DNA from: Candidatus Brocadiaceae bacterium S225
Lineage (GTDB): Bacteria; Planctomycetota; Brocadiia; Brocadiales; Scalinduaceae
Direction of reading: 5' to 3'
NCBI GenBank assembly: GCA_007859995.1
Contig: SMSL01000005.1
Coordinates: forward strand, 124,001-188,000
Length of the DNA stretch: 64,000 bases
Under the pieces are notes generated by a model. It searched no databases. It saw nothing but the letters and a program-made list of their open reading frames with translations, and was not told where the DNA came from. This document shows positions 7,510-57,582 of the stretch, in pieces. Position 1 is the stretch's first letter, and the number at the start of each line of letters is the position of its first letter. The translations under genes were made by a program, and so were the position numbers.

Positions 7510-7542
7510 AATACTCATTCTCCTTTAATTTATATAAAAATC

Positions 7543-15145: not shown

Positions 15146-16717
15146 TCATTCCTTTCTCTTCCAGCCCAGCAACAAATCAGTATACTCCCCATGCTTCCAG
15201 AAAGAATACGCACGGTGTTTGATTCCTATCTTTTCTTCTATCTCTGCAAAGCGTTTGAGCTTACTTGCCTCATCCTTTATCTGAATAAGCCATCGGTCCT
15301 GGGCCCATTCCCAATACCCATAAACAGGGCTGTAATAAGCGTTGTGTGATTTGGCCTTAAAGATAGCATCAATAATATCTACCAGCATTTCGTAGGCCAG
15401 TCGTTCTACATTAGACACGTTATATTTTCTCACCTCACCCTTCCCCGGCAAAAGGCTGAAGACATTGTGACCGGTAGAATCTGGAGCGAGGTCGGCAGGC
15501 ATAGGATCTATCAGATTGTGATTATACAAGTCCATCACAATTCGCATTGCCTCACGGTATTTAACAAAACTGAGTTTAACCGCTTCATCCATGGCCTCTA
15601 AATGATCTCTTGCGAACCGGGGTGAATGACAATCCTTACAGACCGCAATCCATGCATCCCTGGTCGCCCTGTACTTATCCGCTCCCCTGTCTACAAGAGA
15701 AGTACCCATGTAAGTATAAACGGTAGATGTACTGATAACATTATGGTCACCTTTAGGCATATGGCAGTATGCGCAAGTTGGAACTGTATAATTTTCCGCA
15801 TTGAGAGGTTTCGACCAATCCCAGGTCTGTCCTTCTCCCTGAAAAATCATACCGTGGTATGATTGCATATACATCTCATACTCGTATTGCTCAGGGCCGG
15901 AATGACAGACCGCACAACCGTTTGGCTTTCTGGCTTCAGCCAAAGAAAATCGGTGCCGGGTATGACAACCATCACATCTGTTCTCAATTGCATGACAGCC
16001 GAGGCAGGCAGCCGTTTCTTCGGCAGGTTTCTCCGTCTGACACCCTAACTCGATCAACTCAAGATGATAGGCATTAGCATGCGAACCTTGGCCACTTTGA
16101 CGATGCCCTTGTAATTGCTTTTCATGACATTCACCACAGAGATCGTAAGAAGGCATTATGAGCTTTTTATGATTCTCCCCATGACATCTGTCACATCCGA
16201 CTATATCTTTTCCGTCTGATGGTTCCGCATGCTTGCTCTGCCTCCATTGTATTACAATCCCGGGGCTTTCTACCATGTGGCAAGTGACGCACTCTGTATT
16301 CGTAAATTCTCCTTCTACAGTACTACCGGGATGAAAGGTGTCGCTATTGTAATAGTACGCCGGATCGTACCATCGTATCAGAGGCAGGAAATTATAAAGA
16401 TGTCCATACGTTCCTTTTCCTGGAAAGAGCTTCTCCGGTCCGGTATAAAAGCTTGAAAGCCCCCCCGCATGATAAATGTTTCCGGAATCATCCGGGCCGA
16501 CTCTTTCTCCCAGGAGTTCTGCCATTTCGTATTGAAATTTTAAGCTACCCGGCATTTCACCCGATGCTGAAGCCGTCTCACCCAAAAGCGTTTCAAGGTC
16601 TAAAGAGTTTGCCTCTTCTGCTTTTTGTGCAAAAGAAGTCGTTGAAATATGCGGAACGAAAAAGATGGATATCAAAAGCGTGATGATTGAGAATTGTTTT
16701 GTGTTAATATCAAACAT
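15146..16717 (-). CDS. Octaheme HAO-like cytochrome, probably oxidative type
   Basis: A second hydroxylamine-oxidoreductase family protein (523 residues from 16717). The signal peptide ends near TTSFAQ. Eight CxxCH motifs lie between about residues 144 and 362: CVTCH, CDRCH, CGECH, CLGCH, CDGCH, CAVCH, CAYCH, CKDCH. The segment aligned by eye with the haem-crosslinking Tyr region is Tyr-rich (HNAYYSPVYGYWEWAQDRW), so an oxidative catalytic haem with a Tyr crosslink is possible, unlike the paralogue at 5752. The start at 16717 is chosen because GGGGGG precedes it; the upstream ATG has no such site. The ligand or substrate cannot be decided between hydroxylamine, hydrazine and NO species. Confidence 0.88.
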   Translation of the reverse strand: MFDINTKQFSIITLLISIFFVPHISTTSFAQKAEEANSLDLETLLGETASASGEMPGSLKFQYEMAELLGERVGPDDSGNIYHAGGLSSFYTGPEKLFPGKGTYGHLYNFLPLIRWYDPAYYYNSDTFHPGSTVEGEFTNTECVTCHMVESPGIVIQWRQSKHAEPSDGKDIVGCDRCHGENHKKLIMPSYDLCGECHEKQLQGHRQSGQGSHANAYHLELIELGCQTEKPAEETAACLGCHAIENRCDGCHTRHRFSLAEARKPNGCAVCHSGPEQYEYEMYMQSYHGMIFQGEGQTWDWSKPLNAENYTVPTCAYCHMPKGDHNVISTSTVYTYMGTSLVDRGADKYRATRDAWIAVCKDCHSPRFARDHLEAMDEAVKLSFVKYREAMRIVMDLYNHNLIDPMPADLAPDSTGHNVFSLLPGKGEVRKYNVSNVERLAYEMLVDIIDAIFKAKSHNAYYSPVYGYWEWAQDRWLIQIKDEASKLKRFAEIEEKIGIKHRAYSFWKHGEYTDLLLGWKRKE

Positions 16718-16910
16718 AATTATCCCCCCAACTCTTTTCAACATTAAGGCGAGTTATAAGAACAACACAAATAATGCGTAAATCTTAACAAGTTACAGAA
16801 AAAAGTAAACTTTTTATTGCTTAAATTAACTGTTAAGCATTGATAAATCAAAATGTATATACTATATTTTAACTAACATATTTTAAAAATTGTTTAATAG
16901 GTGTTTCCAG

Positions 16911-25289: not shown

Positions 25290-28200
25290 TTACAATTGTT
25301 TTCTAACATCTTCAGACAAGGATGACATTGCCATTAACAGGTCATCGTTATCCGGTTTGGCCTTGACAAATGAGGAGAAGAGGAGGGTGGCTTCCGAGTA
25401 GATATCTTTAACTATTTTTATGATATTCTCATCGGGGATATTGTTGGTACTTATCACATTTTCCATATTTGTTATTAATACGACAAGTGTCCAGTAGTCG
25501 AGTGGTGTTCGTTTCATCAAATCATCACGCAGGTAAGTAAGGTAATTCCGTAAAGCTTCGAGTGTATCTTCCGATAACGTATTCCCTTTTGATAGATGCG
25601 GTTGAGATGAGATTACCATTTTAGCAATTTCTCTGGAAAGCTCAGCTACGGCGACACGTCCTATTGCCATAATGGAAGCGGCCGTTCTCATTTCAATCTT
25701 TCGTTCCCGGGAAATCTTGATTATGTCATCAAATATCATGCAAATATTGTCTTCAAGCAATCTATTTATTTTGTCTAAATCCCAGCGCTCGTTCTTTAAA
25801 TTTTGTACCCATTCAAGATAAGAGACGAATACACCTCCCAGGTTTGTGCTGATATCGGGCGTTATAAATGTGCCTTTTCCTGTTACGATCCTGTCACCTT
25901 CAGGGGTGACAGGCCCGTTTGCGCCTTCCACGATAATTTTTGCCTTTACACCATATGCATTCCTGTCTATGGCATTCTCAAGCGCTGCGAGGACGAGGAA
26001 GTCGACATCCAATGCAAAGATACCGTCATTTGTGATTTCCCTTCCTCCCTCGAATCCTTTCAGGAAACCCGCACCAATCGTATCCACGTGTTCCAGAACT
26101 GCATCTATATCCAGACCACTTGGATTATAAATACCACCGCTGGCATCCGTAATGGCGACTACCCTTACCCCCTCATCATGGAGGAATTTTGCCGGCGGCC
26201 TGCCTACATTACCAAACCCCTGTATAGCAGCAGTGGCACCTTTGAGTTTTATGTTTTTATGCTCTGCCGCTTTTTTCAGTGCGATAAAAACGCCGCGACC
26301 TGTTGATTCTGCCCTGCCAAGTGAACCCCCCTTATCGTCCGGCTTGCCCGTAACGACAGCAAGAGCATGGCATTTTACTTCAGGATGTTTTTTCAATATC
26401 TCCATACACTTATCAAGATATGGAGTCTCCATAGGAGAAGAAGATTGTTCGTGAAGCGGGAGAAAATCATTCATGATTTTAGCCGTTAATTCTGCACTGC
26501 CTGTCAGCCAATCAGATGAGTCCCTGTTTTCTATTGACGATTTCAGATATTCATCTACAAACCACGCCATCTTCGTCGCGTTTGTATTGACGTCAGGTGC
26601 GGGAATGTCAAGGTGAGGCCCAATTACGTTTCTGCCCCTCAGTTCACGGCTGTATTCTCTGATTATTAATGCTTCTTTTCGTTCAAGCAGGTTTCTCGGG
26701 TTTGCTATAATGCCGCCCTTTGAACCTCCGTATGGGATTCCGGCAATGGCGCATTTCCACGTCATCCAGATAGCGAGCGCCCTTACTTCATCAAGTGACA
26801 CCTCAGGATGTTCCCTGAATCCTCCTTTGACAGGACCACGGACTGAATTGTGGTGTACCCGATAAGCGATTATTTCACCATTTGAAAGCCTCAGTGCCTC
26901 TATCCGTTCAGGGGTAAGTAATTTCTTTTTCAACAGTAGAGGAAGTTTTAAGATATCGGCAACAACCGCAAATTGACTTTCCGCCACCTCAAGCGGACTC
27001 GGCATGGCCACGGCATGCTCTCGAATCTTTGTATACTCCTTCAGGGTAACGCCGGAAACGGAAAACAGCTGACTGACCCTCTCGTATTCCCCGATCTCTT
27101 TTTTGTAATTAATAATATTCTTTGCAATGCCATTCTCAATCTGGAGGAATTTCTCCAACTCTCCTATATTTGCGGCATTAAGATTTATTTTCTCTTTTGC
27201 GGGTTCTTTTGGTTTCAGATGTGCCTTAACAGGAAGATCATCTAAATGGTTAAGTGCCGTCAGCCTCTCACCGGCGAGAAATTTCAAAGCGGCTTCCCCT
27301 ATGGTAAAAAGGTACGTCCTTGCGGGGGGGGACTTTTTACCAAGTCTTTTTTGTGCTGCGGCAACACTGTGAAGGCCAAGTATAATCTTGGATTCCGCTT
27401 CACATGCAAATACAAGATCCAGGATATGATCTGTACCATGACAGAATATTTCATCTTCATATTTCCCCGCAATCCCATTGAAGATAATGGTTTTTGCGCC
27501 CCGCATCTTTTTCTGTATAAGAGTGAGTGTGCCGGGACCAATGTCGTATGCCTTCAACCGGGAAAACCGACCCTTAATGTTGTTTACTTTAACATTCTCG
27601 GGGTTAAGCCCTGTCGGCTTTGCCATAAAGTGATCAACGGGAAGCACGACATCAACACCGTATCCTTTCGCCAGTTCAAGCACTACAGTTGCACTGTAAA
27701 GCGCCTGTGACCGCGAATCCTGCTCCTGTTCAAACATACAGTTATCTACATCGTATCCCTGCTCCTTGAGAAAGGGAAAGGCAATGCCGCCGACAAAGAT
27801 CAGCTTGTCAACCTTTCCGTAAACAATAAGGTTTTTCATCGCCTGGACCTTGACGGTGACGTTGGCGCCACCAATAATTGCAACTACAGGTTTATGAGGA
27901 TGCCTCATAAAATTATCAAGTGCTGTTAGTTCCTGCGTAAGCAGAAATCCGGCTACCTTCGGACCTGAGATAAGGCTTGTTATCGGGCCGAGCGATGCAT
28001 GCTGGCCCATATGGGCTGTTACCGGATCAGCATTTACATAGACATTACAATTGGTAGTATTATGAAGTTGTTTTGCAAATTCCATTACCTCATTGTCATC
28101 CTCTGAGGTCTCACCACTGCGAAACATGACATTTTCCAGAAGAAAGATGCCGTCTTTATCAATAATGTTTTTAACTTTCTCCCCAATGCAGTCATCGGTA

Positions 28201-28595
28201 ATGACAACTTCTTGATCTTTGGGCAGGATGTTTTTGTCTCTTAAAATTTCTGTCAATCTTTTTGCCACCGGCTTCAGGCTGAAACCATGATGAACTTCTC
28301 CATCATTTACAACTCCTACTGAAGTTTTCTTACCCGGAAAGAAGTTCTCTCTTACACCGTTGTGGGATACGATGACAACTGTCCTTGCTCCCTGCTTCAG
28401 TATGTGGCGAATGTCCATGACCGTCGCCCTGATACGCCTGTCATCAATTATCCTGGTATCCCAGACAATATCGTAGTTTACCCTTAAAAAAACTCTCTTC
28501 CCATCTAACGCGGATTTATGAAGATTGCGAATGGGTGTTTTGTCTGCGTATGGATACCACTCAATTATCCTGGTATATTGATCTGGTTTCTTCAT
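25290..28595 (-). CDS. Fusion: degenerate PGK-like domain, HhH linker, glutamate dehydrogenase
   Basis: A 1101-residue protein. Residues 1-450 follow phosphoglycerate kinase throughout (LLENVMFRSGE, IIGGANVTVKV, DIGPGT, IIFNGIAGKYED), but key sites are changed: the GGAKV Lys is Asn, the GGGDT nucleotide loop reads LGLHS, STGGG reads TIGEA. Residues about 467-525 resemble a ComEA-like helix-hairpin-helix (INLNAANIGELEKFL). Residues about 535-960 are a Glu/Leu/Phe/Val dehydrogenase with GPVKGGFREH, MTWKCAIAG, catalytic Lys in PYGGSKGGI, LDIPAPDVNTN, and GFGNVG. About 140 C-terminal helical residues are extra. The dehydrogenase half looks active; the PGK half probably regulates or scaffolds (inference). 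Confidence 0.88.
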   Translation of the reverse strand: MKKPDQYTRIIEWYPYADKTPIRNLHKSALDGKRVFLRVNYDIVWDTRIIDDRRIRATVMDIRHILKQGARTVVIVSHNGVRENFFPGKKTSVGVVNDGEVHHGFSLKPVAKRLTEILRDKNILPKDQEVVITDDCIGEKVKNIIDKDGIFLLENVMFRSGETSEDDNEVMEFAKQLHNTTNCNVYVNADPVTAHMGQHASLGPITSLISGPKVAGFLLTQELTALDNFMRHPHKPVVAIIGGANVTVKVQAMKNLIVYGKVDKLIFVGGIAFPFLKEQGYDVDNCMFEQEQDSRSQALYSATVVLELAKGYGVDVVLPVDHFMAKPTGLNPENVKVNNIKGRFSRLKAYDIGPGTLTLIQKKMRGAKTIIFNGIAGKYEDEIFCHGTDHILDLVFACEAESKIILGLHSVAAAQKRLGKKSPPARTYLFTIGEAALKFLAGERLTALNHLDDLPVKAHLKPKEPAKEKINLNAANIGELEKFLQIENGIAKNIINYKKEIGEYERVSQLFSVSGVTLKEYTKIREHAVAMPSPLEVAESQFAVVADILKLPLLLKKKLLTPERIEALRLSNGEIIAYRVHHNSVRGPVKGGFREHPEVSLDEVRALAIWMTWKCAIAGIPYGGSKGGIIANPRNLLERKEALIIREYSRELRGRNVIGPHLDIPAPDVNTNATKMAWFVDEYLKSSIENRDSSDWLTGSAELTAKIMNDFLPLHEQSSSPMETPYLDKCMEILKKHPEVKCHALAVVTGKPDDKGGSLGRAESTGRGVFIALKKAAEHKNIKLKGATAAIQGFGNVGRPPAKFLHDEGVRVVAITDASGGIYNPSGLDIDAVLEHVDTIGAGFLKGFEGGREITNDGIFALDVDFLVLAALENAIDRNAYGVKAKIIVEGANGPVTPEGDRIVTGKGTFITPDISTNLGGVFVSYLEWVQNLKNERWDLDKINRLLEDNICMIFDDIIKISRERKIEMRTAASIMAIGRVAVAELSREIAKMVISSQPHLSKGNTLSEDTLEALRNYLTYLRDDLMKRTPLDYWTLVVLITNMENVISTNNIPDENIIKIVKDIYSEATLLFSSFVKAKPDNDDLLMAMSSLSEDVRKQL

Positions 28596-42980: not shown

Positions 42981-45500
42981 TCAACAACAAGAAACGCCTT
43001 CTTCCTCTGAAGCGCCGCAACTGTATGGTGCACTATCCCCGTCATTTACATTAAATATTGTAAACTGTCCCGTGTAGGGCAGATTGCTTAATTTTTCTGC
43101 AGTATCCGTACAGACCGCGACAGGCTCGTTTCTAGGGAACAGGTGGCCTTCCTCATCCGTTATTGCCTTATACGGACCATGGTAAACGGCCCTCTGCCCA
43201 ATGTAAACGCAATCATCCTTTTTTTCAAACTTATACCCGCGCAATGTTACAGAATAGAATGAGTACCCTTCCACCTCTTTCCAGAACACCTTCGACAGTG
43301 TCTGAAGTCCGTAAAAACCGGCCTGTTCAAGATAGGCCATAAATTCATCTTCGGTAAGAGCGCCACTGATACACTCACCCCATAATTGTTTGTTAAGTTT
43401 AAGATGTGGAGGGGTCTCCACCTGAGAGACGATATCGGATATTACAATCCTTCCGTGGTCTTTCAGGACTCGCCACATTTCATTAAAAACGGTTTTTTTA
43501 TCCGGTGATAGATTAATGACACAATTTGATGTGATCAGATCAACAGTACCATTATCAACCGGGATATCTTCCAGGAACCCTTTCCTGAACTCCACGATAT
43601 CGTAACCGAGATTCTTTGCCACCAGCTTTCTGTTTTCATTGGCAACCTTCAGCATCTCATCCGTCATATCAATTCCGTAAATCTTCCCCTTCGGACCGAC
43701 TTTTTTAGCGGCGATGAAACAGTCAATACCCGCGCCTGCTCCCAGATCAACCATGGTCTCTCCCGGTAGAACCTTAGCAATAATTGTCGGGCTCCCGCAT
43801 CCATAGAATCTATCCAATACTTCTTGTGGAATATGGCTGGTATCTTCCTGAGAATTCTTTGTCGGACAGCATAACTCCTCCTGAGGCTCTTCCGCAGCTT
43901 TACCGTAAAATTCACGCACAATACTCCTGGGCTTATCAACATCAAAAGAGAGTACACAGTTGGAATGAAGAGTGTAAACGGAATGTGAATCTGCAACTTG
44001 TTGATCAGCGCCGCAGACAGCAGCGCCATCGCCCATTGATCTTAAGACAGTAGGAGCACTGAATCCTGTTTTTCTCTCCTGCATTTTCTTCCTGACTTCG
44101 GCGAGTTCAAAGACAACATCCTTTGTTATCTCCTTGTGCAGATCGCAATAAGGATCAAGAGCATGTATGCCGACGTCCTCGGGAAATTTATCGGTTTCCA
44201 GCTTGAACCCGTTCTCTGAGTAAAAAAATGAATGTTCAATATCTCCGCCTCCACATATAAATTTAATATGACACTCCTTACACTTTTCCTTATTCTGAAG
44301 TGTCGCATTTCTGAATGCCTTGCTCATATTACTGTTTTCCCAGATTTCTCTGAGCGTATTATCAAGTACATTTCCACACCTCAGGCCTGCATGACCGGCA
44401 AATGAAGCAGATGGATAAACGTCTCCGTTTGAATATACACACATGCTGTCGTAACAGGCATTACCCAAATCATACCGCGTTCCTCTCTTGCTGTTTGCCC
44501 TGAATTTGTACGAATCATGGTTATCAACTGAAATACCCGTTTCCCCGGCAATCTCCTTCACCTTTCTCGTCACCTCAATCACCTTATCTATCGTAGGAAT
44601 GGAGTTATTGCCATTGTCGGTTATCCTGCCCCTCTTATGAGCCCACAAAAGATGGTGAGTTTCTACTCCTGACAAAGCAAGCAATTTTGTCGTCTCCGGT
44701 ATGTCATCTATGTTGCTGTTCGCAACGACTGTTGTTACCGTTGGAGAATATCCGGCGCCAACAACATTCCTAATCCCTTCAACGATCAGATTAAAACTAC
44801 CCTTGCCTCTTAACGGGTCATTGATCTCCGGTTTTGAACCATCAAGACTTATCTGGATCTTTAAGAGCTTCTTATCAAATTTTTGTAACTTTTTTATTGT
44901 TTCTCCCTTCAAAAGTGTTCCATTCGTAAGTATTATGAGTTCGGACTCTTTTTGACTGCAGACAAAATCAATAAGTTCAAAAATGTCCTTTCTCATGAAT
45001 GGTTCTCCACCCGTGAAGTAGAAGCGGGATGTTCCCAATACCGCAGCCTCATCAATAATCTTTTTTATAGCTTCTGTTGAAAGACCACTGTCCCCATTTG
45101 GTGATGAATTTACCAAACAATGTGAACATGTCAGATTGCAGGAATTATTTGTGTGTATCCACAACTCATTGAGTTTGTCAGCATGAATGAAATCTGCGCG
45201 CCCCGTGTATTCGATCCTCTTTATTGGTTCTGATGTCAGAAATTCAGACCTTATCAGATCCTTTAGTAACGTATGAACTTCCAACCATGCTCTGGTGTAG
45301 TCCATATCAAAATTATTTGCATAGTTGTGCATCAGTTCCTTAACATTTTTGCAATTCTTAATATCGTCTATAATCTGACTACCTCTTTTATCAGTAATAA
45401 TCCAGTTCGGCATTTCAGGATCGAGAAACAGATGAAGAGAGTCTTGTTCTATATGATAATAATCAGGTGCGTAAAAAACCGATTTTTCGTTTATTTCCAT
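42981..45500 (-). CDS. Radical SAM/SPASM protein fused to an ArsM-like methyltransferase
   Basis: An 839-residue fusion. Residues about 1-95 resemble a PqqD-type peptide-binding domain. The radical SAM domain (about 110-330) has CX3CX2C at C121, C125, C128 ([13 protein letters not shown]) and [16 protein letters not shown]-type Cys cluster follows ([25 protein letters not shown]). Residues about 545-839 match arsenite methyltransferase ArsM: YGCGSP (C568), [30 protein letters not shown] (C660), [13 protein letters not shown] (C710); the C660-C710 spacing of 50 equals that in characterised ArsM. The tail is [13 protein letters not shown]. It probably makes an organoarsenical, or a C-alkylated or methylated thiol product. 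GGAGG lies upstream; it follows a membrane glycosyltransferase by seven bases. Confidence 0.87.
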
Positions 45501-45507
45501 TTTGCTT

Positions 45508-46935
45508 CTACCTCCAATAAGACATTTTGATAAAAAAAAGAGAAACTGAGCCTGCCCTTAACCATCCATAAATTAGCAGGATATAAAAGGGAAGGTATTC
45601 CGGCAGCTTAAGCCAGTGCACCTCCTTCCATACCCATTCGCCATTATACCATATCATATTAGAAAACAGTTCATGGCTCATGAAATAATAACAAATAACC
45701 GTTCCGGTCAGGACAAGCCACGCCCTGTTTTTGTTAAAACAGAGAAAGGGGATAATCCATGTCAGATACCATGGATGTAATGTAGGGGCCAATATTAAAA
45801 AAGTCCCAATAGCTACAAAAGCATAATTTAAGACAAAATTATTCACATCTATATTCCCCTTTTTTTCAGCCTCCTTTTTAGAGGAGGAGGCAAGAGGAGG
45901 ATTCCCGCTATTATCTGTAATTAAAAAAGTTAAGTGTTTTTTATATAAAAAGAAAAGAACCGATCCAAAGATCAATACCGTTACTATTTTAGACGCCAGA
46001 GGTGAACCTATGCATAAACAGGAAATCAGGAAATGTGCAGAATCGTTAAAATGATACTGGGTCCCGAAATGCAAGAGGGTAGAAAACAGCCCTTTACCGG
46101 CACTGATATATGGTAAATACAAAACGGCAATAACGGCAAAAAATACTACAATATATTTAAGTTTTTTAACTGGAATCAGAAAAGGTGCGATAATGATGAA
46201 TATAAATTTGGACATTACTGCCAGGGCAATAGCAAAGACTGTTCCCAAATTTTTTCTAATCACACAGAGATACAACGCGAGTATAACAAGGAATATCTGA
46301 AGCGAATCGCAATGACCTCTTGCCGCAAAACTGATAAGAACCAACGGGCTCCACGCATACGTTAACACATTATGCGGATCTTTTCCCATCACCCTTAAAA
46401 ACTTCAATAATATGAAAATTGACAGAACATCAAATACCAAAAAAATAGACTTCATTGATATTATAGTATGTGAAACATAATCGGCTACTGCAAACACCAT
46501 AAGCGTAAGTGGTGGATAAATCGTAGACAGATGTTTGTGATTAATGCCTGAGAAAAAGCCATCCCTGAGATGTTCCAAGGTGGAAGCTTCCGGTGGATGG
46601 GAGTAAGGACTTATCCCGTTTAACTGTAATTTTCCTTCCCATAGATAACGATATATGTCGTCTGAAGGAGCCTCCGGTAAAAGTGTGAACCGAAACATCA
46701 ATGAAAAAACGATAATAGCCCAGAGAATTGCCCTCGAACTGTTATTATCCTGTTCATTCGTCTCCTCATTTTTTGAAATGTAGTATATGGCAAACATATA
46801 CGTAATAAAAGAGGCGGTATACAAGATAGCAAAACAGGGGATATTCTTTTTTATGTCCCCGCTGTAGGCAATTGCACAGCAAAAGATTTCAATAATAAAT
46901 CCTGTTATTATAATAGTCCTTAATTTCCTGTTCAT
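45508..46935 (-). CDS. Membrane GT-C glycosyltransferase (GT87/DUF2029-like)
   Basis: A 475-residue protein with about ten transmembrane helices. The acidic loop SDDIYRYLWEGKLQLNGISPY after the second or third helix is the expected catalytic motif of polyprenyl-phosphate-mannose-dependent transferases; PTLHPWYLTWIIPF is another family stretch. It would add sugars from a lipid carrier on the outer face of a membrane. It ends seven bases before the radical SAM-ArsM gene. Confidence 0.8.
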   Translation of the reverse strand: MNRKLRTIIITGFIIEIFCCAIAYSGDIKKNIPCFAILYTASFITYMFAIYYISKNEETNEQDNNSSRAILWAIIVFSLMFRFTLLPEAPSDDIYRYLWEGKLQLNGISPYSHPPEASTLEHLRDGFFSGINHKHLSTIYPPLTLMVFAVADYVSHTIISMKSIFLVFDVLSIFILLKFLRVMGKDPHNVLTYAWSPLVLISFAARGHCDSLQIFLVILALYLCVIRKNLGTVFAIALAVMSKFIFIIIAPFLIPVKKLKYIVVFFAVIAVLYLPYISAGKGLFSTLLHFGTQYHFNDSAHFLISCLCIGSPLASKIVTVLIFGSVLFFLYKKHLTFLITDNSGNPPLASSSKKEAEKKGNIDVNNFVLNYAFVAIGTFLILAPTLHPWYLTWIIPFLCFNKNRAWLVLTGTVICYYFMSHELFSNMIWYNGEWVWKEVHWLKLPEYLPFYILLIYGWLRAGSVSLFFIKMSYWR

Positions 46936-47088: not shown

Positions 47089-48135
47089 TCAATTTCCGAA
47101 TACTTCAGCATCAGGATAGTAGTCTGCCCAGACAAACCAGTAAACGGCCAGAAAGGTTACGGGGTGGAGTGTTTTATCTTTCATGCTCCCTTTTATGCCA
47201 ATACCGTTTTCCAGGTCCCACGTAGTATTTGTTACACTGTCTGTCGTATCATTCCTGTTTTCCTCAAAATTAATCACCGCTCCGCCTACCTGTCTGTCAT
47301 ATACCTTGATAATACCGGTATCGTTATTTCTATACACCAGCAGATTCATACCGTCAAATTCATCAGTTATTATTGCCGTCTTGCTAAACAGATAGAATGG
47401 ATAGGCCTTGTGTTTGTCATTTACTTCTATTCCAATAACGTTTGCTTTAATGCCCAGTCTTGCATCTATATTTCCGGCAGGAAAAATGCCTGTTTCTTGA
47501 TTCTTATGGTAGTCTCCATAAACATCGTAACCAATCGTTCTTGAACCGTGATAAGATAATACAAGGGTATCCTGGTGTAATTTTTTCCATGCACCCCACG
47601 GTACTTTTTGACACCACGGAATAGTATTAAGTTTCCCTCCTGTCAACTCACCATCTATCGCCTCGCCGTATACAATTGACCAGAGGGATTCCGTTTCATA
47701 ATCAAACATCACAAGTGTGTTTTTAAGCAATTTACCGGAAACACCAAAAGTATATTCCTTATCATCAATTTCCCGGTTATATACAACGGCAAGATTCGCA
47801 AGCGGGCACCAGGCAACGACAAAAGCCGTATCCCCGATTCTATCATTTACTATTTCGTGATGGTTCAGGAGGTATACAGAATAAGCACGGCTCTCACCAT
47901 CAATCGTTATGCCTACAACCGGTTCATTGTCATCAAGGCCGGCTTCTTCTGCAGGAACAAACTCGGGATTCTTTATAGCAGGTATTGCGTCACGGGGAAG
48001 TACGTATTGTATCTCATCTTTTTCCTGTAAAATATCAGTACCAGCCAGACACAAATTGTCATTAGAAACTGATATGCACAACACTAAACAGAGTAAGTAG
48101 AGATGCTTTTTGCGTAAAAAAAATTCAATCAGCAT
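47089..48135 (-). CDS. Exported DUF3179-family protein
   Basis: A 348-residue protein with a signal peptide (HLYLLCLVLCISVS...) and the DUF3179 core: VGITIDGESRAYSVYLLNHH, VVAWCPLANLAVVYNRE (Cys conserved in the family), GVSGKLLKNTLVMFDYET, SLWSIVYGEAIDG. Function is unknown. Its start overlaps the end of the GT2 gene by seven bases. Confidence 0.85.
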   Translation of the reverse strand: MLIEFFLRKKHLYLLCLVLCISVSNDNLCLAGTDILQEKDEIQYVLPRDAIPAIKNPEFVPAEEAGLDDNEPVVGITIDGESRAYSVYLLNHHEIVNDRIGDTAFVVAWCPLANLAVVYNREIDDKEYTFGVSGKLLKNTLVMFDYETESLWSIVYGEAIDGELTGGKLNTIPWCQKVPWGAWKKLHQDTLVLSYHGSRTIGYDVYGDYHKNQETGIFPAGNIDARLGIKANVIGIEVNDKHKAYPFYLFSKTAIITDEFDGMNLLVYRNNDTGIIKVYDRQVGGAVINFEENRNDTTDSVTNTTWDLENGIGIKGSMKDKTLHPVTFLAVYWFVWADYYPDAEVFGN

Positions 48136-49646
48136 TTTATTGTTTCATTAAACTTCTGAAAAAGAGAAAGCGTGCCAACGTAAAGAAACCCGATCGCATA
48201 CATCAACAGAAAAGGCCCGAATACAAATTTCTTATTACTCGCATATTGCATAAATCCTATAAAGCAATAAACGCTTAAGAGTATTTCACTGATGAAGAAT
48301 ACCTGCAGTGGTAATGAGTAATTTTTTATCAGTATATTCCTGCCTCGTTTGATCACACCGTACTTGGGCGTTCTAATAAAATCACTCTTGATATTAAACA
48401 GTGCTTCGAATACCGCTTTTGTGTTATTGATAGCAATGCCGCACCCTATAACCATAAGTGCTGGAATAAACAAACACCTTTTCTTCCAGTCTCTATAGAC
48501 CTTTTTCTGAGAAACTATATAAAGAAATGTAGGCGCAAATGCTCCCATAGACATTAAAAATATCAGGATTATCATTGTTAGAGAAACTGACATATTACTA
48601 ATCTGCTCTTTTAATAAAACGACGAGGGGAAAGGATAACAGGGCAAGTATAATCATCATTGGATGGGCCATGTACTGGTTCAGGTGAATAAAGGCTTCAA
48701 CCTTCTTTATCAGGCTATCGTTCGTCTTGAATACTTGAGGTAAAACCTTTTTAGCTGTCTGAATAGAGCCCTTTGCCCATCTATGCTGTTGAGATTTGTA
48801 GGCATTTATATCAACCGGCAGTTCTGACGGCGTAACAACATCAAACAGGAATTTAGTATTCCAGCCTTTTAATTGAGCTCTGTATGACAGCTCCAGATCT
48901 TCAGTCAGAGTATCAAAATCCCACCCCCCTGAGTCAATAATTGCCTCCCGTCTCCAGACCCCGGCAGTTCCATTAAAATTCATATATAACCCATTCCAGG
49001 TCCTGGCACCCTGCTCGATAATAAAGTGACCGTCCATACCAATGCCCTGTGCTATTGTAAGAAGAGAGTAATTTCGATTTATGTGCCCCCATCGTGTTTG
49101 AACAATGGCAACTTTTGGCCTTTCATAAAAGAAGGGAATAGTGTCATAAAGAAAATTTTTATCAGGTACAAAATCGGCATCAAAGATTGCCAGAAACTCA
49201 CCTTCAGCCTTTTCCATGCCCAGGTTTAACGCCCCTGCCTTAAATCCATCTCTATTGTCTCTGACAACATGTTTCATGTTAAACCCCATCGCACGATATT
49301 TATTAACCAGTTCATATACAATGTCCCTTGTTTCATCATTAGAATCGTCCAGTACCTGTATTTCATGAAGCTCCTTCGGATAATCGATATTTACGACTGC
49401 CTTAATTAAACGTTCGACTACATGCTTTTCGTTATAAACGGGTAATTGTGTTGTAACTTTTGGCAGATTGCCTTTGCTATGATTTGACCAGAACTGTTTA
49501 AGAAACTCCTGATTCCCGGATGTCTCCTTTTTAAGCTTTCTTAAAAAGAGATAAATCATATAATAATTATTGATGCCATAAAGGAACAGCCATAGTGCCG
49601 CCGGGCAATAGAAAATAAGGATTATTATTAATAATGCGCTGTTCAT
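48129..49646 (-). CDS. Processive GT2 family glycosyltransferase, mannan/cellulose synthase-like
   Basis: A 505-residue membrane protein with an N-terminal helix, a cytoplasmic GT-A domain and about four C-terminal helices. Motifs: QLPVYNEKHVVERLI, DDSNDET, DADF, LTEDLELSYR and QQHRW, the D, D, TED, QxxRW set of processive synthases. It most resembles plant CslA-type beta-mannan synthases and bacterial relatives. It opens a run of four minus-strand genes (GT2, DUF3179, GT-C, radical SAM-ArsM) that may serve one envelope or secondary-metabolite pathway. Confidence 0.87.
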   Translation of the reverse strand: MNSALLIIILIFYCPAALWLFLYGINNYYMIYLFLRKLKKETSGNQEFLKQFWSNHSKGNLPKVTTQLPVYNEKHVVERLIKAVVNIDYPKELHEIQVLDDSNDETRDIVYELVNKYRAMGFNMKHVVRDNRDGFKAGALNLGMEKAEGEFLAIFDADFVPDKNFLYDTIPFFYERPKVAIVQTRWGHINRNYSLLTIAQGIGMDGHFIIEQGARTWNGLYMNFNGTAGVWRREAIIDSGGWDFDTLTEDLELSYRAQLKGWNTKFLFDVVTPSELPVDINAYKSQQHRWAKGSIQTAKKVLPQVFKTNDSLIKKVEAFIHLNQYMAHPMMIILALLSFPLVVLLKEQISNMSVSLTMIILIFLMSMGAFAPTFLYIVSQKKVYRDWKKRCLFIPALMVIGCGIAINNTKAVFEALFNIKSDFIRTPKYGVIKRGRNILIKNYSLPLQVFFISEILLSVYCFIGFMQYASNKKFVFGPFLLMYAIGFLYVGTLSLFQKFNETIKC

Positions 49647-49745: not shown

Positions 49746-50873
49746 TTAATGTGCAAATCTGACCAGTATCCAATAAGCACCTGCGCCAAAAAGGGCAGCT
49801 ACTGGAAGGGTGACCAGCCATGATAATATTATTCCCTGCATAATGCCAGTATTTAAACGTTTCGATGCCAGGCCTATACCAAAGATGGATCCTACAGATA
49901 CGTGTGTCGTAGAAACAGGTATACCGAATCTGCTGGCAAATATAACAAGGAAGCCGGTAACCAGGTTTGCCGTAAGGCCCTGGCCATGGTTTAATTCTGT
50001 GATCTTGTTGCTCATTGTTTCGGCCACCTTCCCGGCATTCAGAAGCCCGCCTGCGGCCATACCAACTGCGACGGCAGCCATCCCCCAGTGTATGGATAAT
50101 CCCTTAATCAAGAGTAAGAGGGCGACAATCTTTGGTGTATCATTCAGGCCGCGAGCAAAGCTTACAACTCCCGCGGAGCAAAAATGAAAATAGTCCAATA
50201 GCTTTTGACAATTCATACCCAGAAAGCGCCCTTTATACATTTCCACACAATTTTCACTCTTGTCAATTGTCGCACCAATGGAGCTGCCGCACTGTGCCAT
50301 AAGAGTAGCGGCTGATTGCATAGATGGCACCAATGCCTTCCGCCCACCAACACAAAGGCACCACTCCCTGGTAATGCCGGAACGAAGACGTATATTCCTG
50401 AATATAATGTACAGGACACTGCCAAAAGCCACTGCAATAACGGGGGCAATTAAAAGAGGAAAGAAAAATGAGCTGCCTAAGACAGCAAAGTTAACCTGAG
50501 CACCTACGGCTACAAAACCGGCACCAACCAGCGCGCCTGTCAAACTGTGTGTTGTTGATATGGGAAAACCCGTAACCGTCGCAATGATGACCGTAATAGC
50601 AGAGCCAATCGCCACTGCGGTAAGAAATTCTGGAGAGAGAGAAACAGCATCAGGAACCAGGCCTTTCCCGGAAAAGGTTTTTACCAGTGTCTGTGCAAAA
50701 AATATAGAACCCACAGAACCTGCAAATGTTGTCATCGTTGCCAGCCAAATCGCACCTTTGTAATTAGTGGTTCCGCTTCCAAAGAGTGTGGCGACTCCTT
50801 TAAAGTTGTCATTAGCACCGTTTGAATACGCGAGAAAACACGTCGCCAGGAAGAGGATTATAAAGATCGTCAT
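49746..50873 (-). CDS. Inorganic phosphate transporter, PiT family
   Basis: A 375-residue protein with about ten helices and the repeated PiT signature (SNGANDNFKGVATLFGSG near the start; GLNDTPKIVALLLL in the second half), plus FPISTTHSLTGALVG and PVSTTHVSVGSIFG. It moves phosphate (with H+ or Na+) across the membrane. The cytoplasmic loop has several Cys (REWCLCVGG). A PhoU-like gene lies 3 kb away. Confidence 0.88.
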   Translation of the reverse strand: MTIFIILFLATCFLAYSNGANDNFKGVATLFGSGTTNYKGAIWLATMTTFAGSVGSIFFAQTLVKTFSGKGLVPDAVSLSPEFLTAVAIGSAITVIIATVTGFPISTTHSLTGALVGAGFVAVGAQVNFAVLGSSFFFPLLIAPVIAVAFGSVLYIIFRNIRLRSGITREWCLCVGGRKALVPSMQSAATLMAQCGSSIGATIDKSENCVEMYKGRFLGMNCQKLLDYFHFCSAGVVSFARGLNDTPKIVALLLLIKGLSIHWGMAAVAVGMAAGGLLNAGKVAETMSNKITELNHGQGLTANLVTGFLVIFASRFGIPVSTTHVSVGSIFGIGLASKRLNTGIMQGIILSWLVTLPVAALFGAGAYWILVRFAH

Positions 50874-54521: not shown

Positions 54522-55280
54522 TCATTTTTGTTCATTTAAGTTCCAATCGTAATCAAGATACTTTACGGTGGTTGTGTTGTTTCTGACAAATTCCGCATCA
54601 ACCGGGTTTAAATACCCAGCAACATAATCTTCTATCCTTTCCGCTCTCTTGAGAAAGTCTCCCCGATACCATTTAAAGATGTGAGAGAGATATAAAACAC
54701 TGTTTTCCCTGTCCAGATAATTCCTGCTTCTGTCATTAATAAATGACACGGCTTGTGCTTCAAGCTGCTCTTCCAGTTTTTCAGCCTTGTATGCTTCTGT
54801 TAATAATTTCGGACAACTCATAGAAGCACAATTAATAGCAAAATGTATCCTTGGCTCCCGAAACGCCTCTCTCAGCTTTTCGTTTTCCAGTACCTGTAAT
54901 GTAATCTCGCCGAGCTTTATCTCAAATTTTTTTCTCTTGAAAAAACTGTCAGGAAGCCAACCCACATCACGAACACTCTTTATCGGATACTCTTCAAGGA
55001 CGCCCTTTATAACAAATGCATTATACACATTTATCCAGAAGGCCATTCGATGCTTGTCCGACGGCAGGCTACGTGGGTCTGTATCTGAAAGGTATTCAAT
55101 ATATTTCTTAATCTCATTATCTTTCTTCAACCCCTTATAATCAACCAGTCCATCCTCTGAAACATAACGGTTTAAGATACGATCAAAAATTGCATCGGGA
55201 CTATCTTTTTCTGATGCAGAAACTTCGACCGCCAAGCCTTGCACTATTGTCAAAACCAGCATTAATATAATAGTCTTCAT
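54522..55280 (-). CDS. Exported DUF547 protein
   Basis: A 252-residue protein with a signal peptide ending near VSAS and DUF547 landmarks: AFWINVYNAFVIKGVL, IHFAINCASMSCPKLL and YLSHIFKWYRGDF. The family is thought to have a papain-like fold with Cys and His, here present in INCASMSCP. The role is unknown. The thioredoxin-like remnant is directly downstream. Confidence 0.85.
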   Translation of the reverse strand: MKTIILMLVLTIVQGLAVEVSASEKDSPDAIFDRILNRYVSEDGLVDYKGLKKDNEIKKYIEYLSDTDPRSLPSDKHRMAFWINVYNAFVIKGVLEEYPIKSVRDVGWLPDSFFKRKKFEIKLGEITLQVLENEKLREAFREPRIHFAINCASMSCPKLLTEAYKAEKLEEQLEAQAVSFINDRSRNYLDRENSVLYLSHIFKWYRGDFLKRAERIEDYVAGYLNPVDAEFVRNNTTTVKYLDYDWNLNEQK

Positions 55281-55391: not shown

Positions 55392-56816
55392 CTAATCAAA
55401 CCATCTTATCAACTTCTTGGTGACCTTTGGAACCCATCCGGAGAATATTTTTTCCGCATAGTACATGTTCGTTGTTCTTCTTACCGCTTGAGACAATGCG
55501 GGATAGACATGTATGGTCTTTGTAATACTTCCCACCCCGAGATTATTCTGCATTGCCATTGCAAATTCGTGCAATAGCTCTCCACCCTGCGGAGCAAGAA
55601 CATGGGCGCCCAATATTTTACCCTTCTTCGTGCAGACGATTTTAATAATCCCCTTGTCCTCACCTTCTATAACCGCTCTGTCCAAATCCTTCATATCAAA
55701 CCTATACACTCTTACACTTTTATATTTCTGCCTTGCTTCTTCTTCTGTTAATCCCACACGCCCCAGTTCAGGGTCTGTATAGGTAACCCAGGGAACAGCA
55801 CGATAATCAACCTTTCTTTTCATGAAAGGTATTAATGCATTAGCAACCACAAGACCTGCCTGATATTCAGCAATATGCGTAAACAGATATTTACCGGTCA
55901 CATCTCCACATGCCCATATATTCCCGGCAGTAGTCCGCATAGCATTATTTACAGCGATAGCCCTGTGCTCTACCTTGACCCCGACAGCATCAAGGCCCAG
56001 ACCATCCAGATTAGGCGCGCGCCCGATAGCCAGCATTAACTCGTCCGCCTGAAATGTCTCTTTCTGCCCATGACACTCGGCTACCATTACCTTCAGATCG
56101 CCTTCCTGCCTGACATGGTCAACGCTAAGACATGTATGAATCTCTATTCCCTCCTCCTTTAGTATAGATTCGAGAATGCCTGTTACCTCCTTGTCCTCAC
56201 GCGGCAAAATCCGCCCAACCTTTTCTATGATCGTAACCTTAATCCCGAATCTTGCAAACACCTGTGCAAACTCCATCCCAATCGGGCCGGCGCCCAATAT
56301 AATTATCGATTTCGGTAAATAATCCAATTCCAGGGCGCTTTCACTGGTCAGATATTTAATATTTTCAAGGCCCTTAATGGGGAGGACAACTGCCCTTGAT
56401 CCCGTTGCAATGACAAACTTCTTGCTTGTAATCGTGTGATCGCCAATTTTAAAAGCGTGCCGGTCAATAAATCTTCCGTCACCGAAAAAAACCTTTATTC
56501 CCATATTTTCAAATCTCTTCGGATCATCATGCACACCAATCTTTGATATCACTTCTCTCATGTGGGTCATAATATTCTTAAAATCGAAAGAGATATCTGT
56601 ATCATTCAAGCCGTATTCCTTAGACCTTTTAATGAGTGAAGCTACTTTAGCGGACCTCACCAATGCCTTTGTGGGAACACATCCATAGTAGAGACAATCT
56701 CCTCCCAGCTTGTTTTTCTCAACCAGGGCTACTCTGGCGCCAAGCTGAACCGCTCCACTCGCAACGTTTAGACCTCCTGCCCCACCGCCAATTACCGTAA
56801 GATCAAAATCTTTCAT
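55392..56816 (-). CDS. Pyridine nucleotide-disulfide oxidoreductase, MerA/Lpd-like
   Basis: A 474-residue flavoprotein: FAD loop GGGAGGLNVASGA, redox-active disulfide in GGDCLYYGCVPTKAL, NAD loop GAGPIGMEFAQVF, and the C-terminal dimer/His-Glu region (HVYPALSQAVRR). It lacks mercuric reductase's N-terminal metal domain. Together with the TVP38 gene upstream it forms a pair often annotated as a mercuric reductase-like module; the substrate is unknown. Confidence 0.85.
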   Translation of the reverse strand: MKDFDLTVIGGGAGGLNVASGAVQLGARVALVEKNKLGGDCLYYGCVPTKALVRSAKVASLIKRSKEYGLNDTDISFDFKNIMTHMREVISKIGVHDDPKRFENMGIKVFFGDGRFIDRHAFKIGDHTITSKKFVIATGSRAVVLPIKGLENIKYLTSESALELDYLPKSIIILGAGPIGMEFAQVFARFGIKVTIIEKVGRILPREDKEVTGILESILKEEGIEIHTCLSVDHVRQEGDLKVMVAECHGQKETFQADELMLAIGRAPNLDGLGLDAVGVKVEHRAIAVNNAMRTTAGNIWACGDVTGKYLFTHIAEYQAGLVVANALIPFMKRKVDYRAVPWVTYTDPELGRVGLTEEEARQKYKSVRVYRFDMKDLDRAVIEGEDKGIIKIVCTKKGKILGAHVLAPQGGELLHEFAMAMQNNLGVGSITKTIHVYPALSQAVRRTTNMYYAEKIFSGWVPKVTKKLIRWFD

Positions 56817-56864: not shown

Positions 56865-56917
56865 GTAGCCGCAATCTTCAGGTTGCGTATATATCTCAGG
56901 CTTCAGCCTGCGGCTAC
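56865..56917. repeat. Short palindromic repeat at the TVP38 stop
   Basis: GTAGCCGCAATCTTCAGG... ending CAGCCTGCGGCTAC: terminal GTAGCCGC/GCGGCTAC arms with an inner CAGG/CCTG pair. It shares the GTAGCC and GCGGCTAC units with the elements at 14955 and 63213, and it supplies the stop codon of the TVP38 gene. Confidence 0.6.
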
Positions 56918-57582
56918 TTTTTCAGTTTTTTATAAATAGTTGGTGTAAATGAAATTAATATCAATAATACACTGGCGATAATTAAATTGGTCATTGCCTT
57001 TTTTCCACTCCCCGTCACACCACTGAGAAGCGCATCTGCAAAATAGGTATAAATAAATGTGCCCGGTATCATACCCAGTACAGAACCTAATAAATAATCC
57101 CGGTATTTAATCCTGGAAAGGCCGGAGCCAAAGTTAAGCCCATTAAAAGGGACAAGAGGGATTAGCCTGAGTGTGAATATAAACCGGAAACCATTATCGG
57201 CAACTTTTTCATCAAAGGAATCTATCCTCCCCTTCATAAGCCTTGCCACGAAATCTCGCCCGAAGTATCTTGCCATTAAGAATGCAAGAGTAGCGCCCAG
57301 ATTAGAAGCCAGTATGTTATAAAAGCTACCCCATGCCACCCCGAATATTGCCCCTCCGCACAAGGTTAAGAGCGAACCGGGTAACGCGAAAACACATCCG
57401 ATACCATAAATAATAATGAAACCGACAGGCCCCCACCAGTGTTCTCTAAACTTTGAAAGAAGATCCAGGAGCGTTTCTTTCTGAGTATATTGTGACAGGG
57501 GTGTATACCTGAACGCGAAAAACGCGCCCACAAGAATCATTATCAGAATGGTAAACTTTATTATCGGTTTCTTGTTCGTCAT
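56914..57582 (-). CDS. TVP38/TMEM64 family membrane protein
   Basis: A 222-residue DedA/VTT-domain protein with about five helices: YGIGCVFALPGSLLTLCGG, FGVAWGSFYNILASNLGATL, RYFGRDFVARLMKG, IPLVPFNGLNFGSGLSRI. The family is related to lipid scramblases. The stop codon lies in a repeat element, so the C-terminal end (KKLKK) may have been altered by it. Confidence 0.87.
   Translation of the reverse strand: MTNKKPIIKFTILIMILVGAFFAFRYTPLSQYTQKETLLDLLSKFREHWWGPVGFIIIYGIGCVFALPGSLLTLCGGAIFGVAWGSFYNILASNLGATLAFLMARYFGRDFVARLMKGRIDSFDEKVADNGFRFIFTLRLIPLVPFNGLNFGSGLSRIKYRDYLLGSVLGMIPGTFIYTYFADALLSGVTGSGKKAMTNLIIASVLLILISFTPTIYKKLKK

Follow-up and report, generated by a model that had tools for sequence, protein, structure and literature searches.

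We analysed a stretch of 64,000 nucleotides from Candidatus Brocadiaceae bacterium S225 (GenBank assembly GCA_007859995.1, contig SMSL01000005.1, positions 124,001 to 188,000; hereafter the window), and more precisely one gene at 42981-45500 on its minus strand, whose product joins a radical S-adenosylmethionine (SAM) enzyme and an arsenite methyltransferase of the ArsM type in a single chain. We consider it probable that this fusion is a one-chain, non-orthologous replacement of the separate ArsS and ArsM proteins in arsenosugar-type synthesis. ArsS is described as the radical SAM enzyme that starts arsenosugar synthesis together with a separate ArsM (PMC8552651, PMC12159101), and it is reported as adenosylating arsenic (PMC12159101). 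The initial annotation, made from the letters of the window, had proposed a candidate organoarsenical synthase. This function stays the likely one in view of the ArsM arsenic-binding cysteines and of the arsenosugar-cluster neighbours described below. The annotation took arsinothricin synthesis as its point of comparison; the ArsS and ArsM pair, which it had not considered, is the closer one.

The gene is one intact open reading frame (ORF) encoding 839 amino acids, its coordinates including the stop codon. A GGAGG located 10 nt 5' of the ATG provides a good ribosome-binding site. The protein consists of a probable PqqD/RRE-like fold, a radical SAM domain, a SPASM domain, and a full ArsM. The ORF itself and the Pfam, NCBIfam, and PDB matches all agree that these parts belong to one chain, as had been annotated. 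The radical SAM domain (residues 112-300, 44601..45167; all parts of the gene being on the minus strand) matches Pfam PF04055 over residues 118-274 (1.2e-24, 87.7 bits for a cut-off of 29.5), which places it in the superfamily. Its CX3CX2C motif (C121/C125/C128, 45117..45140), i.e., the site of the SAM-binding 4Fe-4S cluster, is kept in all 30 of the 32 rows of our family alignment that cover it. The SPASM domain follows (residues 346-452, 44145..44465, with C354, C375, C407, C410, C416, and C452). PF13186 recognizes it over residues 350-411 (8.4e-9, 36 bits for a cut-off of 21.5), and the SPASM-type cysteines had thus been correctly read. A linker (residues 453-515, 43956..44144) with two cysteines, C496 and C515, found in 32/32 rows, leads to the arsenite methyltransferase domain (residues 516-839, 42984..43955, with C544/C545, C568, C660, C710, C764, and C797). 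The chain ends in a Cys-Cys pair (residues 838-839, 42984..42989), also noticed initially, and the column is Cys in 32/32 aligned rows.

The assignment of the C-terminal half comes from NCBIfam, from PDB structures, and from the conservation of its cysteines. The top NCBIfam match of the fusion is the arsenite methyltransferase model NF008823 (527-734, 1.4e-70, 237.9 bits), whose curated cut-off of 263 is missed. Pfam Methyltransf_31 is matched over 580-728 (6.6e-33), and the top PDB matches are ArsM structures, 5evj (E 5e-39, 517-816) and 4fr0 (E 2e-36, 548-805). Judged by sequence, we regard the homology with ArsM as firm, though the automatic NF008823 label is not earned. The initial annotation had equated C568, C660, and C710 with the arsenite-binding cysteines of ArsM. 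Counted along the printed alignment, they indeed superpose on C72, C174, and C224 of the arsenic methyltransferase 4fr0, and the spacing of the last two is 50 in both proteins, as had been stated. C544 aligns with a cysteine of 5evj, in the place of the N-terminal cysteine of ArsM. In its arsenite-binding cysteines and its C-terminal part, the fusion aligns with known ArsM proteins (5evj, 4fr0, 8xt7; NF008823, NF038099), from which it differs by its N-terminal RRE-like-radical SAM-SPASM half and by two further invariant linker cysteines. ArsM is also one domain of a larger protein in two other NCBIfam models, ArsM_AhpD_UU (NF041537) and ArsM_DUF2284_UU (NF041536), but there the partners are, by the model names, AhpD or DUF2284, and the fusion reaches neither cut-off.

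The PqqD-like domain announced at the N-terminus (residues 1-90, 45231..45500) is supported by its predicted fold, but weakly by its sequence. Pfam PqqD is listed for three of the six fusion N-termini tested, the window's own not among them, and stays below its cut-off in all six (best 20.3 bits for 23.4). On the other hand, in an AlphaFold2 model of residues 1-441 (mean predicted local distance difference test, pLDDT, 73.4), residues 15-84 adopt a β-β-β-α-α-α order with a block mean pLDDT of 66-93. The best PDB matches of this model in Foldseek are the peptide maturases CteB, SuiB, and SkfB, with a TM-score of about 0.5-0.6 for the best. We take these three to carry an RRE domain. The domain order and the predicted fold of residues 1-441 resemble those of such RRE-bearing radical SAM/SPASM maturases (CteB 5wgg, SuiB 5v1t, SkfB 6efn). 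The fusion differs from them in carrying ArsM, in having no recurring small ORF nearby, and in its Omnitrophota members, devoid of four SPASM cysteines. Its putative RRE may be a relic of a maturase ancestor or a docking domain. The full-length model (mean pLDDT 59.6), in which the ArsM half is too weak for judging how the active sites face each other, was not used for that purpose.

A search for the same fusion, as had been suggested, finds it at 43-96% identity in three phyla. Because of this recurrence, chance is excluded, and on sequence grounds the fusion is a real family. The named relatives are six records of Candidatus Scalindua (76-96% identity), an Omnitrophica record (53%), and bacterium LQ108M_Bin_12 (50%); the same search also returned two loci with weak radical SAM matches. 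Scalindua belongs to Planctomycetota and comprises marine anammox bacteria. A profile of the radical SAM half was searched over genomes. In Planctomycetota, 20 of 392 genomes match it at E 1e-45 or better and 17 do so below 1e-120, these 17 being counted here as full-fusion genomes. The family is also found in 9 of 334 Omnitrophota genomes and in 2 of the 7 genomes of the phylum of LQ108M_Bin_12. Besides the window's own, the 17 comprise 14 one-frame ArsM fusions, one that runs off its contig (G031), and one broken by a stop (G029). The three weaker matches in Planctomycetota are two unfused radical SAM proteins (L101 and L103) and a truncated piece (L102). The latter (L102:8208-8849, genome G283, same order) is a 213-aa shortened piece of the radical SAM half and looks like a decayed copy. 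In two Omnitrophota genomes (G694 and G545), a contig end cuts the fusion inside its ArsM part, into which the corresponding frames (L120 and L124, respectively) do reach. Three frames (L095, L097, and L099, of 1306, 1031, and 1337 aa) seemed to bear extra N-terminal domains; these have no Pfam or NCBIfam match, and we read them as over-long open frames. A mobile origin was also considered and set aside: 453 plasmid records match the query, none covering 80% of it, and phages give 0/9. No account of such a radical SAM-ArsM fusion was found in the open-licence literature, a search that leaves out most subscription papers and so is not proof.

The alignment of the family (32 rows, including the duplicate L086, from the same contig as L019) has twelve invariant cysteines, i.e., C354, C496, C515, C544, C545, C568, C660, C710, C764, C797, C838, and C839. 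A TGGEP motif is shared without change by 30 rows, and 3 of the 29 tree rows carry one extra residue after the terminal Cys-Cys. In the SPASM domain, C375 is kept in 26/32 rows and C407, C410, C416, and C452 in 24/32 each. These last four are absent together in exactly the 8 Omnitrophota rows, where the SAM-cluster cysteines stay. The auxiliary cluster therefore seems unneeded for the core reaction, and such a dispensable cluster seems to fit a simple adenosyl transfer.

The genes surrounding the fusion are those of arsenosugar-type clusters. We counted, by blastp likeness to reference proteins (60 bits, half coverage) and not by hidden Markov model (HMM) calls, six kinds of partners: TIGR04282, TIGR04283, VTT, MerA, DUF547, and PiT. 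NCBIfam names the first two arsenosugar biosynthesis glycosyltransferases. At least one of the six lies within 8 kb in 29/33 fusion loci, in 17/20 Planctomycetota ArsS loci, and in 0/20 other stretches of fusion-bearing genomes. Each fusion was compared over a stretch of about 18.5 kb, each control over 16 kb. The 33 loci include the four incomplete or broken fusions (G031, G694, and G545 at a contig end, and G029 with an in-frame stop), and the 20 ArsS loci, out of 131 genomes with ArsS, were picked by long contigs and order membership, not at random. At least two partners are present in 15/33 fusion loci, a TIGR04282-like gene in 18/33, and a TIGR04283-like gene in 8/33. An HMM check at two loci (L021 and L023) confirms the arsenosugar-type cluster, with some scores under cut-off. 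In LQ108M_Bin_12, the fusion is next to a TIGR04282 gene (118 bits, cut-off 134), a VTT-type gene, and a TIGR04283 gene (216.2 bits, cut-off 182). The Omnitrophica record has a TIGR04283 gene (180.5 bits, just under the cut-off) and a fused TIGR04283/TIGR04282 gene (232.6 and 186 bits). In Scalindua sediminis, DPMS-like, TIGR04283, VTT-, MerA-, DUF547-, and PiT-like genes and more glycosyltransferase genes, then the fusion, stand in about 20 kb. TIGR04283 is over the HMM cut-off in 7/8 other fusion genomes. Taken across loci, a cluster of arsenosugar type with TIGR04282 and TIGR04283 was thus found around the fusion.

In the Planctomycetota sample, the fusion and ArsS do not co-occur. ArsS is found in 131 of the 392 Planctomycetota genomes (130 over cut-off) and the full fusion in 17, and no genome has both (hypergeometric P 8e-4, uncorrected for kinship). 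TIGR04283 is present at E 1e-45 in 148 of the 392 (135 over cut-off), of which 14 carry the fusion and 89 carry ArsS; the other 45 lack both, and no genome combines the two (P 9e-7, again with kinship uncorrected). Inside the window's order, all 11 genomes in which ArsS was found belong to family f2, whereas the full fusion was found in families f1 (5 genomes), f3 (2), and f4 (1) only; in f1, f2, and f3 there are also several genomes with neither. No ArsS above cut-off is present in any of the eight other fusion genomes, where the best match of the ArsS model falls in the fusion, and the same is true of the window's own genome.

The ArsM half also resembles the ArsM proteins of ArsS clusters. 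An ArsM lies near ArsS in 15 of the 20 chosen ArsS loci, which read much like fusion loci. These ArsM proteins have the counterparts of C764 (15/15), of C797 (14/15), and of the terminal Cys-Cys (15/15), whereas four stand-alone ArsM are devoid of C797 and of the Cys-Cys, two of them also of C764. C515 of the fusion has no Cys counterpart in the 15. In a tree of the ArsM domain, the fusion rows form one side of a branch with an SH-aLRT of 98, and fusion and ArsS-cluster ArsM group together against the four stand-alone ArsM. The support of the fusion clade goes from 98 to 83 after three further loci (L238, L232, and L234, see below) are added and L172 is dropped. Both trees leave out L086 and the fragments L091 and L100, and the second one also L172, which has a very long branch. 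Of the 28 fusion genomes searched, 22 yielded no ArsM besides the fusion; a second ArsM over cut-off occurs in four, and the last two carry additional frames interrupted by in-frame stops. Two ArsM-like frames (G236:C9:23908-24591 and G214:C8:33313-33912), with an in-frame TGA and, in one of them, also a TAG, are possibly selenoproteins or decayed genes. In summary, the fusion shares with the ArsS and ArsM pair its TIGR04282-, TIGR04283-, MerA-, VTT-, and DUF547-like neighbours, its ArsM subtype as judged by cysteines, and apparently its slot. It differs by being one protein instead of two, by its added RRE-like and SPASM parts, and by a radical SAM half that the ArsS model matches only in part.

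By sequence, this half is distinct from ArsS and resembles RRE-SPASM enzymes of the peptide-maturase type, and the same job would therefore have been taken over by another radical SAM lineage. In a rough radical SAM tree, whose deep branches we do not trust and in which the rows L003, L005, and L015 labelled "other" are one and the same frame, the fusion stands apart from ArsS. Its nearest rows are the unfused RRE-radical SAM proteins L101 and L103. Both align along nearly the whole N-terminal half of the fusion at 28% identity, have no ArsM within the stretches read, and come from genomes with TIGR04283 and without an ArsS match. We observed that the L103 gene (L103:7877-9930) adjoins a gene for a TIGR04169 arsenosugar biosynthesis-associated peroxidase-like protein (138.9 bits, cut-off 120), and that a frame similar to the latter (61.9%) lies beside or overlaps the over-long start of the L101 gene (L101:8677-10641).

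Other radical SAM proteins were seen in the same position. G370, which is of the same genus as the window, has a second fusion (L238:6062-7876) that joins a short radical SAM protein with a Cys-rich tail to ArsM in 604 aa. This fusion lies between the glycosyltransferase genes that also flank the one in the window, and it begins at the radical SAM domain, with no room for an RRE. Two loci of genomes without ArsS (L232:10408-12410 and L234:9981-13531) place a short radical SAM protein, of 314 aa in L232, beside a separate ArsM gene in arsenosugar-type clusters. These two-gene clusters, which include TIGR04283, belong to G054 and G009, and their short radical SAM proteins are 33% and 32% identical to the radical SAM half of L238. 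Unlike radical SAM proteins are thus found beside the same ArsM and sugar genes, and this is for us the strongest hint of one shared reaction.

We propose the following course. The ArsM domain would use SAM to methylate arsenite held by C568/C660/C710 with C544/C545, giving methyl- and dimethylarsenite, a step well supported by homology. The trivalent methylarsenical would then move to the radical SAM domain, being perhaps handed from one active site to the other by the linker cysteines C496/C515 and the terminal Cys-Cys. A second SAM bound at C121/C125/C128 would yield a 5'-deoxyadenosyl radical, as family knowledge leads us to expect of the CX3CX2C cluster. We infer, from the genomic association only, that this radical would add to the methylated arsenic to give a dimethylarsinoyl-adenosine-type product, as ArsS does. 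The neighbours suggest that TIGR04282, TIGR04283, and other glycosyltransferases would convert it into an arsenosugar or an arsenosugar lipid. More tentatively, and with less than even confidence, we suggest that C-As bonds are made here by yet another radical SAM lineage, distinct from those of ArsS and ArsL. It would have been recruited from RRE-SPASM peptide maturases and joined to ArsM, a single chain then leading from arsenite to a finished organoarsenical. As the radical part is not ArsS, this product may belong to a new arsenical class.

In the window, the ORF upstream of the fusion, which ends 7 nt ahead of its start and is likely in the same operon, encodes a membrane glycosyltransferase-like protein (45508..46935, minus strand like all genes cited here) with a weak match to the TIGR03459 mannosyltransferase model (30.5 of 439.4 bits); a similar gene lies within 8 kb in 16/33 fusion loci. 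At higher coordinates come a DUF3179 protein (47089..48135; similar gene in 10/33 fusion loci), a cellulose-synthase-like family 2 glycosyltransferase (48129..49646), and a PiT-type phosphate transporter (PHO4; 49746..50873; PiT-like within 8 kb in 17/33). Farther on stand a DUF547 protein (54522..55280), a mercuric-reductase-like flavin adenine dinucleotide oxidoreductase (55392..56816), and a VTT/TMEM64-type membrane protein (56914..57582). Genes similar to these three occur within 8 kb in 10/33 fusion and 5/20 ArsS loci, 8/33 and 8/20, and 10/33 and 6/20, respectively. Elsewhere in the window, a 1101-aa frame (25290-28595) is an odd fusion of two central enzymes (i.e., phosphoglycerate kinase, a helix-hairpin-helix motif, and a Glu/Leu/Phe/Val dehydrogenase), and another (2573-5569) encodes a TPR-CHAT protein of 998 aa. 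Inspection of the translations by eye also points to two large proteins with many CxxCH haem motifs (5752-7518 and 15146-16744), candidate multihaem cytochromes of a kind that would suit an anammox-type genome.

Several observations weigh against the replacement of ArsS and ArsM by the fusion. The ArsS model TIGR04167 gives 73 bits on the fusion, over positions 2-172 of 303, and misses its cut-off of 300. On the same part, the models of NirJ2, AhbD, and the mycofactocin maturase reach higher values (131-142 bits). Because of this partial, weak match and of these higher scores, the reaction of the radical SAM half cannot be read from homology. The neighbour counts use reference proteins drawn mostly from fusion loci, and four of the 33 loci (G003, with only 2 kb on one side, G330, G353, and G124) have no partner of the six within 8 kb. 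In the window itself, the VTT, MerA-like, and DUF547 genes are 9-12 kb from the fusion, and the TIGR04283 gene of the genome (229.9 bits, over the HMM cut-off) sits on another contig. TIGR04283 at E 1e-45 is missing from 3/17 fusion genomes. On its own it is also no sure arsenosugar marker, because 45 of the 148 genomes that have it hold neither ArsS nor the fusion, and 17 of 20 such loci, sampled from these 45, contain no ArsM at all (only 3 do). The lack of overlap in Omnitrophota (ArsS 27/334, fusion 9/334, overlap 0) is uninformative (P 0.46), and the absence of ArsS is unproven for any single genome since the genomes are largely incomplete (79% for the window's own).

A different product could also be made in the same slot, the radical SAM half joining methylated arsenic not to 5'-deoxyadenosine but to some other radical acceptor, such as a lipid or a sugar, and thereby giving a new arsenosugar-like or arsenolipid class. 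We judge this unlikely. In its favour, the radical part is not ArsS, being below the ArsS cut-off and closest, in the rough tree, to L101 and L103. Moreover, GT87-like genes are near 16/33 fusion loci vs 0/20 ArsS loci and DPMS-like genes near 7/33 vs 2/20, the references in both cases coming from Scalindua, a choice that works in favour of fusion loci. In all other respects, however, the partners match those of ArsS clusters, and the several unlike radical SAM proteins filling the slot argue for one shared reaction. The arsinothricin-type product suggested by the annotation's analogy appears improbable. There too, a radical SAM protein (ArsL) and ArsM act in turn on arsenic (PMC8552651), and the arsinothricin ArsM model NF040538 is the second-best NCBIfam match of the fusion. 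But this model is reached at 206.8 bits only, missing its cut-off of 500, and ArsL and ArsM are separate proteins. The neighbours of the fusion are those of arsenosugar clusters, whose glycosyltransferases an amino-acid product does not fit, and the ArsM of ArsS clusters have the same C-terminal cysteines. In addition, ArsL is considered in that paper to be probably a single-cluster enzyme (PMC8552651), whereas SPASM cysteines are kept in 24/32 fusion rows.

The annotation had also evoked a thiolated or methylated peptide. In such a maturase of a ribosomally synthesized and post-translationally modified peptide, the RRE would bind the peptide, the radical SAM/SPASM part would modify it, and the ArsM part would methylate or arsenylate it, in keeping with the architecture of CteB, SuiB, and SkfB. 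We give this little credence: none of 417 small intergenic ORFs (20-110 aa, those overlapping larger frames being left out) found within 5 kb at 30 loci is common to more than two genomes. Furthermore, four SPASM cysteines are absent in 8/32 rows, the arsenic-binding cysteines of ArsM are invariant, and the second fusion in the same slot, L238, has no room for an RRE. Finally, the fusion could serve plain arsenic detoxification, ArsM methylating arsenite beside a redox-regulatory or inactive radical SAM part. Its ArsM domain is complete and, as said above, the only one found in 22/28 genomes. Against this stand the CX3CX2C motif kept in every covering row, the invariant TGGEP, and biosynthetic neighbours common to ArsS clusters, so that we hold it to be the least probable, with a very small chance of being right.

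A one-chain replacement of ArsS and ArsM thus stays our favoured interpretation. To our knowledge, the makers of arsenosugars and arsenolipids beyond algae and cyanobacteria are poorly known. The fusion family predicts organoarsenical synthesis in Scalindua-type bacteria, whose order also includes a sister family with ArsS, and in Omnitrophota. The presence of the fusion instead of ArsS provides a sequence marker for surveys that count only ArsS, and a one-chain enzyme offers a way to study the passage of arsenic from methylation to radical C-As bond formation. If the unlike radical SAM proteins that fill this slot share their chemistry, C-As bond formation would have evolved more than once in the superfamily.

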